A model generated the notes under the pieces. It searched no databases, was not told the origin of the DNA, and saw only the letters and a list, made by a program, of their open reading frames with translations. This document shows positions 49,901 to 55,560 of a stretch of 64,000 nt of DNA, piece after piece. The position numbers and the translations under genes are program-made. The stretch comes from Arbacia lixula (Eukaryota > Echinodermata > Echinoidea > Arbacioida > Arbaciidae): positions 8,471,699 to 8,535,698 of the forward strand of contig OZ022597.1 of the NCBI GenBank assembly GCA_963669155.1, read 5' to 3'. Positions within the stretch are counted from its first letter, which is position 1. The number at the start of each line of letters is the position of its first letter.

Positions 49901-52900
49901 GCAAAGCCTCTTTTTTTAGCAAAAAAAAGCGACTTGTATGAGTGCAGGTTTAAAGACAAATCACACTATTCCATTGATTTCTGATGTTAACTTTTGAAGA
50001 AACATAAGGAACTTTGAATAGTAATCTGAAGCAGCCTTTATCCTAACAAAGACACATAAAGAAACATTGAATTGTATTCGAATTCAGCCTTTAATAGCGA
50101 AAACTCTGCACAAATGTCCGGTAATCCACTCAGTATCCTGTTTCGTAGGAAGTTTATTTTGACGGAAATATGCTCAAAAGGTTATTAGGACTCTTTATTT
50201 GTTTGCACGTAGCAAGCGTCACAGTATCATTTTATTTTTGGAAGCAAAGGTTGGCATCTTGGGTGTGTTATCATTTTATTCTAGCCTGTAATCAGTGTTT
50301 TCAAATAAGGCTAATGTTTGCAGTTGATAAACACAACTGCAATTTGCTACATGATTAGCCCCAACATTATGCAGAAAAATTGTGAGTTTTGATATGCGCA
50401 TAATCCAGAATTATGTACATATACATGTGTAAGTTGATGAGCGCAGCATCACAGAATCACAAACTGAAACAAGTTTCAAAATACGTGTATTGAAAGGCTG
50501 ATTCTAACTGTAGAAAGTTGATATAAGCACCCACTGTTAATGATGGTCTCTCTCGCTCTCTTTCTCTCTTTCTTCTACTCTTTCTTCCCCTCTCCCTCTC
50601 TCTCTCCCCCCCCCCTTCTCTCTCTTTCTCTCTATCTCTCTCTCTCACTATTTCCCTCTATGTCCCCTTCTCTCTCGCCCTCTCCTTAATTCTCTCTCTT
50701 TCTCTCTCTCTTCATCTCTCTTTTCTCTCTTCCTTGTTTTCTCCCTCTCTCCCTCTCTCCCTCTCTCCCTCCCACTCTCTCCCTCTCCCCCCCCCCCCCC
50801 CCCTCTCTCTCTCTTCCCCCCTCTTTCTCTCTCTCCCTAGATTAAAGCATGCCCTGGAGGACGAAGCTAGCTCAGGGGAGTGTTCCCCATCTGGGGGAGG
50901 GGGGCGGGGCCAGAGTGGTACCTCTAGCCCCCAGGGGCAGGTGGCGTCAAGGCGTACCTCCAGGGAAAGCCAGAAGGACGTTACTACCCCAGGATCAGTC
51001 AGTGAGTACCCCTATCTTACACCCTTTAAAGGAATAGTTCCACCTGAAATGAATTTAGTTTCAATCAAATGAGACACATAAAAGAAACATATTAGTGAAG
51101 GTTTGATGGAAATCCGTCAAAGGATAAGAAACTTATGATCTTTTAAAGTTTTGATTTGATTTAAAATCCTGCTCAATCGGATTGGTTTGTATTACTTGTG
51201 CAAAATGCATTAATAGTCCATAAATGCCGAACTTACTAGAGGTTCACATTATCTATTTTCAATCATTTTTTTTTAATCTACATTTTGTGGCCTTTTTGTT
51301 GTCAGCTATTACATTTTTACATTTTTTTTTATATTTTGGAACAAATGTTTGGTGTATCTAATCCTTCTTTTCAAATATCCTACCCTCTCTTTCCTTCCAT
51401 GCCTCAATCCACTTTCTTTCACTCCTCTCTCCATCCCCCTTTCTTTCATCATACCTCTATGCTGTCTCCTGTTCTCTCTCTCCATGCCTCACTTTTTCAC
51501 TTTTCCCTTACTCCTCCTTGCTTTCCTCTTTCTCTCTTCTGTGATTCCCCGCCCTATCCCCTCGATCTTGTGTCTTGTTGTGTCTCTTCTTTCCCTCGCC
51601 CCCCCCCCCCCCCATGCCTTACTCTGACTTCTCCTGTTCTGCCTTCAGGTGAGGTGGAATCAGAGGTCAAGTCCCCGACCAGCCTCAGCAGTCGATCCTG
51701 CCAGACCCTTCCTTACGTGGTGGACTCAGTCCAGCAAGACACCCTTGATCTCATCGAGCGCCTGGCCAAGGAAACCACCACTTCCTCCCAACCATTCAAG
51801 GACCCCCTTTCCCCTCCCTCCCCATCCGCCCACACTGACACCAGCTCAGAGTCGGACACCATCGCCGATGTCGCCGACATCGCCTCCACCTCCCAGATGA
51901 TCACCATCGACATTGAGCCGCCATCTCCACGCCCGCCGCACCTCGCCGTCATCGATCCCGACATCCCGTCGACGTCGTACGGCGTGGTCATCGACCACAG
52001 CCACTTCCCATTCGACTGCGCCCAGCCGGAGTTGGTGCCCGGGGAGGTGATCGTGTGGAACCAGGGGCGAGCAGGCCAAGGATGTAGGGGAAGCCCCCAC
52101 GAGGGAAAGCACATTCCACTAGGCATCGGGCTGGACTCCAGCGATACCTCCTCCATGCTGTCCATGACGTCAGTGGCACGGTCTGCCAGCGAGCTAGGCA
52201 CCACCTGTAGGGTGTGCTTTGAGGGGGAGACGTCCTCCAAGAACAGGCTAATCAGGCCCTGCAGGTAAGCCTCTCCATCAATACACACAAACCAACAAGC
52301 TGTTTTCAGGATATATTTAGATATCTTCATGAGCTTCCAGAAGGACATTTTGCAAAAAAGTTATATGCAAACATATCTGTGTATGAAAATACAGTACAAT
52401 TTTTCCTACTAACCGCAAGATGACATGCAATTACATTCACCTACATGTATTTGGTGAATCAGTTTCAATAAATAAAATGCACTCTGAATCAGAATCAGTA
52501 TTTTGGTTACCAATAATAATGTTTTATTCCAAAGACATGCTTAACATATGCATACAATCACAAAATGGTGTATATGAGCAGCATTTTGTCTTGCATAGAA
52601 AACTAGAAAACATGAGATTTTCAACATCTGTCGAGGTCACTCATCCAGCTTATCGAACTCATCCAAGTCATTGCCATACACTAAGAAAAAACATGAAACT
52701 CTTTATATTACATTAACATGTGTGTTGGACGTTATTGCTTTTACAACCTTTTACCAGCCCAATGACTACGGTTTTGGCTAGATTCCATTTACTACAATAT
52801 TATTAATCACCTGTGTTTTATTGATTTTGGTTAACACGGGTGGATTTTGAGTACATTCTTTGTTCTTGTTTGATTGAACACAGATGCACTGGGTCTGCCG

Positions 52901-55560: not shown

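Follow-up and report, generated by a model that had tools for sequence, protein, structure and literature searches.

Tandem repeats that lie across exon-intron boundaries, known as mirages, have been described in the lancelet Adh3, globin, TnC, and PGBD5 genes (PMC3087553, PMC3902484). As given in the passages of these two papers at hand, the units are 10 to 160 bp long, AG/GT is kept in many copies, the centres of the arrays are homogenised and the edges are divergent, and haplotype differences and somatic instability are recorded. For the Adh, globin, and TnC mirages, regular splicing was reported to be undisturbed (PMC3087553, PMC3902484), whereas the same was only suggested by the authors for the PGBD5 mirage in the passages of PMC3902484. 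The corresponding passages of the globin paper add that cryptic splicing at mirage copies could produce aberrant transcripts, and propose the recruitment of exon copies, or intron birth, for the globin mirages (PMC3087553). Intron gain from the tandem duplication of AG/GT-containing segments was put forward by Rogers 1989 and by Gao and Lynch 2009, as cited in the passages of PMC3087553. Regarding the choice among competing sites, PMC9225289 reports that the sites closest across the exon are preferred when the flanking introns are large, and those closest across the intron when the introns are short.

We analysed a 64 kb stretch (C22:8471699-8535698, hereafter the window) of an echinoderm assembly of 607 Mb in 590 contigs. 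Contig C590 (15,740 bp) is its mitochondrion: COX1 stays open under the echinoderm code, as it does under several others, AAA stands at two positions where Asn is expected, and a tRNA-Lys with the anticodon CTT is present. Its genes, named by eye from the frames, run ND1, ND2, (16S by position), COX1, ND4L, COX2, ATP6, COX3, ND3, ND4, ND5, ND6 (opposite strand), CYTB, an arrangement that sea urchins have in common with sea cucumbers and that sea stars lack. By code and gene order the host is an echinoderm, most probably a sea urchin, and a cephalochordate origin was rejected. The gene that carries the array described below codes for a protein of the RING-CH (RINGv) type; the Pfam match to RINGv has an E-value of 3.5e-15 and scores 56.3 bits, where the cut-off is 21.6, and the nearest solved relative is 2d8s (E 8.5e-10). 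The protein has a RING-variant domain and then a membrane segment, a hydrophobic stretch judged by eye, as a MARCH-type membrane E3 has. The RING-CH core is divided over two exons, one ending at 52264 and the other at 52884-53040, and the intron after the second, 2,421 nt long, holds the array. The features of the locus are as follows, in which 'exon 10', 'exon 11', and 'exon 12' are labels only.

51240..52264, + strand: open frame that contains the preceding exon ('exon 10'), first half of the RING-CH core, ...CRVCFEGETSSKNRLIRPCR, donor CAG/GTAAGC; its 5' end is not fixed
52265..52883, + strand: upstream intron, 619 nt
52884..53040, + strand: 'exon 11' of 157 nt, encoding the other half of the RING-CH core, CTGSAASIHRQCLVKWIQISGNRTCEVCGARFSYVPLSEHMRGVMDKFRSNR (the Pfam RINGv match above)
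53041..53046, + strand: donor 1 (GTAAGT), the only one of the 14 donors yielding a membrane-anchored protein
53059..53061, + strand: in-frame TAG, the seventh codon beyond donor 1, reached by every read-through product
52975..54775, + strand: near-identical units 1-12; lengths 139-150 bp, with u6 (184) and u10 (186) longer
53401..54023, + strand: higher-order block A (u4-u7), 623 nt
54024..54633, + strand: higher-order block B (u8-u11), 610 nt
54776..55055, + strand: units 13 and 14, decayed, donor kept; native intron thereafter
55462..55560, + strand: last coding exon ('exon 12'), RWRNAAFAVLVGLVVILYLIIFAVFPGGIMNT*, with the membrane anchor; acceptor CTTGCAG

As listed above, 14 tandem units (u1-u14) lie at about 52975-55055, with anchors from 53001 to 54949 that are spaced by 139-186 nt (141-150 nt in 10 of the 13 spacings). 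A unit of about 142 bp is made of a 64 nt exon tail, the donor, and about 78 nt of G-rich intron, and it spans the exon-intron boundary. The array adjoins the authentic exon; u1 is the real exon end and the only unit joined to it, and u2-u14 are intronic and all precede the acceptor at 55461. The donor GGGTAAGT is perfect in every unit, and the array accounts for all 14 of its occurrences on the + strand of the window; the - strand has none. TRF reported 142-bp arrays in the window with scores of 1535 and 1104. The preliminary description had placed 14 copies of the exon tail and donor at 52884..55035, and both the number and the place were confirmed, except that 52884 is the start of the exon and the repeated part begins at about 52975. 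It had further called the 14 splice sites near-identical. The donors are in fact identical in all units, but of the units as wholes only u1-u12 are near-identical: relative to u1, u13 and u14 have diverged at 40% and 35% of the aligned sites in the intron part, and by 5% and 16% in the exon part. The later duplication of four units that it had put at about 621 bp was borne out by blocks A and B, which are separated by 0-5 substitutions per unit pair, eight in all, plus indels. An extra 40-bp internal repeat is found in u6 and u10, and u7 and u11 have the start AGCACC in common.

The homogeneous u1-u12 followed by diverged units at the far edge form the pattern of concerted evolution known from mirages. 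Among all 14 units, the mean substitution per site was 0.053 for exon sequence and 0.140 for intron sequence. Between u14 and u1, 7 codons differ and the residue is changed in 6, and no protein-level constraint was apparent on the copies as judged from their codons. The conservation of GGGTAAGT in all 14 units, even in u13 and u14, could weakly hint at selection on the donors. However, stretches of 8, 9, and 11 other columns are equally invariant across the 14 units, and selection was not retained as an explanation. Since the poly-G tracts near the unit ends are variable in length among the units, the exact unit lengths may be unsure. The units share the junction GGTAGCTTCAG, at which intron GGTAGCTT is joined to exon GCTTCAG with GCTT common to both, and intron GGTAGCTT is also present in the native intron after u14. 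The u13-u14 junction is unlike the common one (CTACTGTCGATTCAG), suggesting that the array may have arisen in two rounds of amplification. We propose that the array began as a tandem duplication of a segment straddling the exon-intron boundary and later expanded and became homogenised; the GCTT junction would be consistent with slippage or microhomology-mediated duplication, followed by unequal exchange.

Compared with the lancelet mirages, as these appear in the passages at hand, the RING-CH array is similar in that the repeats span a 5' or 3' boundary with the signals kept in many, although there not all, copies, in that the real exon is at one array end, and in that the edge units escape homogenisation. 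The unit length is similar too (BflGb6, 150-160 bp; BflGb9, 157 bp). The differences are the host, a cephalochordate there and an echinoderm here, and the number of units, 6 and 3 in BflGb6 versus 14 in the RING-CH gene. In its anatomy the array is a mirage outside the cephalochordates, and probably a neutral one. As far as the literature searched shows, a known kind of array is thereby extended to another phylum; in the sea-urchin and echinoderm literature covered, which excludes most subscription papers, no title or abstract opening dealt with exon-boundary arrays. The minisatellite of human IFI6 (6-16, G1P3; Turri et al. 1995) has a 12 nt unit and provides multiple splice donors that are reportedly used. 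It is similar to the RING-CH array in being a minisatellite at an exon end that offers multiple donors; the RING-CH unit is longer, about 142 nt, and includes a long stretch of exon, and the distal donors of the array are putative sites. With the intron gain by AG/GT tandem duplication, the array has in common that exon sequence and a splice signal are duplicated inside a gene, but the RING-CH copies occupy an intron that was already there, with no sign of a new exon.

The same construction was searched for elsewhere in the genome. Twenty 10 kb pieces (200 kb) were sampled, giving 264 kb together with the window. In this sequence 29 TRF rows passed a filter of period >= 30 and >= 2.5 copies, and 4 of them had one of the four strong donor motifs tested in the units, three being the window array and one a TRAP1-like array. 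Tandem pairs whose two copies both show a donor or an acceptor pattern were also sought in about 302 kb, made up of the window, ten RINGv loci, and the samples apart from L029 (a 10 kb satellite), an overlap of about 7 kb included; only the window array and the TRAP1-like locus emerged. A third array was noticed in the table of kinesin-domain matches (n=126) from several close hits to the same profile range.

G000:C7:5004420-5005110 (L018:4420-5110), minus strand: TRAP1-like exon end, ...WYWCSDG followed by GTGAGT, with four donors (GTGAGT or GTGAGC) 151-157 bp apart (TRF)
G000:C21:15809060-15810700 (L045 and L043): kinesin intron amplified at both ends, three donors and then seven acceptors

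In the PDB, 60 residues of the TRAP1-like exon match Hsp75/TRAP1 (E 1.4e-13); in Pfam they hit no family. GT is kept in 4 of 4 donors of this array. In the kinesin intron the real donor is the first and the real acceptor the last, GT is kept in 3 of 3 donors and AG in 7 of 7 acceptors, and all seven acceptors contain CTATCCAG. The exon part of the third donor copy is interrupted by an insertion close to its end, and pairing with U1 is weaker at the second donor (-6.9 versus -10.1). Only the outermost of the 21 donor-acceptor pairs is open. An intron amplified at both ends in this way was not found among single lancelet introns in the passages of the mirage papers. Since the real site is the first in the donor-type arrays and the last in the acceptor-type array, it is in each array the site nearest across its exon. 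Moreover, read-through at the first donor meets an immediate stop in the TRAP1-like and kinesin genes, and a stop at the seventh codon in the RING-CH gene, which would act as a further safeguard beside exon definition.

In the myosin (73), TCP1 (60), and protein kinase (132) match tables, no other close series to one range was seen by eye. The four domain families, with 391 matches from scored candidates (kinesin 122/211, myosin 65/186, TCP1 84/84, kinase 127/884), contained one gene with an array and one with an exon duplication. Such tables detect only copies with enough domain sequence, and the window array itself appears as a single RINGv match; one array gene in 391 matches is likely a lower bound. 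The arrays are recurrent but not common in this sample. Two candidate duplications, kinesin C7:7404300-7405300 and myosin C1:8453900-8455300, were rejected: neither contains an internal repeat, and both resemble ordinary exons. Overlap in profile positions between adjacent matches was observed for myosin at C15:19566485/19567394 (219-336 and 292-380) and for kinesin at C2:38529070/38528409 (232-289 and 273-305). At L044 (G000:C21:15711200-15712200) two copies of a small kinesin exon lie within G-rich sequence at a distance of about 400 bp, and part of the locus reads N.

Self-comparison of the ten other RINGv loci revealed tandem or nearby repeats in four (L034, L035, L036, and L041), none of which passed the donor/acceptor tandem-pair scan. 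One of these repeats, at L035:2208-2771 on C13, is a 148-bp tandem repeat downstream of the RINGv exon, without a donor or acceptor pattern in both copies. L036 (G000:C22:8550696-8550836) is a second RING-CH gene about 15 kb past the window end. It was considered as a guide to the ancestral intron and was found too diverged (47% identity over 49 residues).

The possible splice products of the RING-CH gene were then compared. Use of donor 1 leads to the anchored protein, whereas donors 2-14 or intron retention all lead to the identical C-terminus ...FRSNRVSVGMG*, as the read-through past donor 1 adds six new residues before the TAG at 53059-53061. With 13 of 13 distal donors this stop precedes the last junction by 122 to 1927 nt. 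Messages with a stop at such a distance are substrates of nonsense-mediated decay (NMD), and decay of the distal-donor messages is expected. The preliminary description had reasoned that most distal donors would frameshift away the anchor because the unit is not divisible by three. This does not apply: the seventh codon past donor 1 is TAG, so the in-frame stop is met first and the unit length modulo 3 is irrelevant. It had also quoted the string GGGG-AT-GGGG-TA-GGG-N7-GGG for each unit, and the exact string is present in 10 of 14 units only; the generic four-run G3 pattern holds more widely, in 13 of 14, with u14 lacking it. On the sense strand of the window, 27 of the 28 four-run matches are inside the array, and on the opposite strand none of the 18 matches is. 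One match in each of u1-u13 opens with the GGG of the donor itself, and folding that permits quadruplexes gave a lower predicted energy for all 14 units. At the sequence level the G-quadruplex potential is real, with the structure only predicted, and since 13 of 14 units possess it, it cannot single out one donor.

Taking these results together, we consider it quite likely that the RING-CH array is a mirage, that is, a tolerated boundary minisatellite whose decoys would be ignored under exon definition. The earlier suggestion of a neutral minisatellite seeded at a donor thus gained support from the match to the lancelet mirages and from the recurrence of the construction in unrelated genes of the same genome. 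Since the flanking introns measure 619 and 2,421 nt and the exon only 157 nt, the rule in PMC9225289 makes exon definition our preferred reason for the survival of the array. With the sites paired across the exon, the donor nearest to the upstream acceptor would win and define the 157 nt exon, and the 13 decoys would be removed within the 2,421 nt intron; we infer that donor 1 is the one used. If a decoy were used, the in-frame stop would make the message non-productive, so that quantity would be lost and no new protein gained.

The decoys could instead be functional. If the 13 of them diverted transcripts to non-productive messages by competing for U1, the copy number would tune the amount of the E3. 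The kept donor in 14 of 14 units, the early stop after each of the 13 distal donors, and the good pairing with U1 speak for this reading: the duplex energy is -11.9 kcal/mol in 10 units and -10.0 to -10.3 in u6, u10, u13, and u14, compared with -11.2 for the donor of the preceding exon and -14.3 kcal/mol for the full consensus. Nevertheless, the same architecture in the unrelated TRAP1-like and kinesin genes points to a mutational habit rather than the regulation of one gene, and lancelet mirages were reported in the passages at hand not to disturb regular splicing; we hold such poison splicing to be unlikely. Less probable still is a regulated switch between an anchored and a soluble E3, which the preliminary description had offered. 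The distal donors do drop the membrane segment and keep the RING-CH core. However, all 13 of them, as well as retention, give one truncated C-terminus, for which 13 donors are no better than one; all distal donors carry an NMD-type stop, and the frameshift plays no part. A soluble form could arise through intron retention, but it would not need the array.

It is also conceivable that the copy number is partly a product of assembly, by expansion or collapse of the G-rich array or by false duplication of the four-unit block. Tracts of poly-G that vary among the units are hard to sequence, and the two blocks are close; since they differ by eight substitutions and indels, and since u1-u3 and u12-u14 are distinct, a multi-unit array exists whatever the exact count, and we think this explanation very improbable. 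Intron birth in progress, in which the exon copies are recruited as new exons, was proposed for the lancelet globin mirages in the passages of PMC3087553. Here the copies taken as 64 nt cassette exons lead to a stop in 13 of 13 cases, which rules them out as productive cassettes. Furthermore, u2-u13 are each preceded by an AG that comes after G-rich sequence poor in pyrimidines, and u14 has no AG before it. Intron birth is accordingly given hardly any credence for this locus.

Under the mirage reading, three echinoderm cases from little sampling suggest either a wider deuterostome phenomenon or independent origins. It may be speculated that exon boundaries in this echinoderm lineage are a recurrent seed of minisatellites, with hundreds or more introns carrying unstable arrays of intact decoy sites whose copy number sets the loss by poison splicing. 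We regard this generalisation as unlikely, and its 'hundreds or more introns' is extrapolated from a single case in 200 kb of samples and a single array gene among 391 domain matches. If it were true, expression would vary widely across genes and change fast between individuals, with the protein unchanged. The arrays are also natural competition tests, in which very similar splice sites differ mainly in distance, and the RING-CH intron offers 14 donors for comparison, the kinesin intron 3 donors combined with 7 acceptors. They bear on the question of exon versus intron definition, as the pairing of the sites is directly testable in the animal.

Other repeats were seen in the sequence covered. 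In the window, a pyrimidine-rich 74-bp array of about 16 copies lies at 44948-46105 on the + strand, its consensus being free of the four donor motifs tested. The satellite sample L029 (G000:C18:5000001-5010000) is a single satellite over the entire 10 kb, with TRF periods of 65, 207, and 272 bp. Finally, a 217-bp tandem duplication is present at 38058-38493 of the window, and its two copies are 100% identical (TRF), being either recent or an assembly duplicate.
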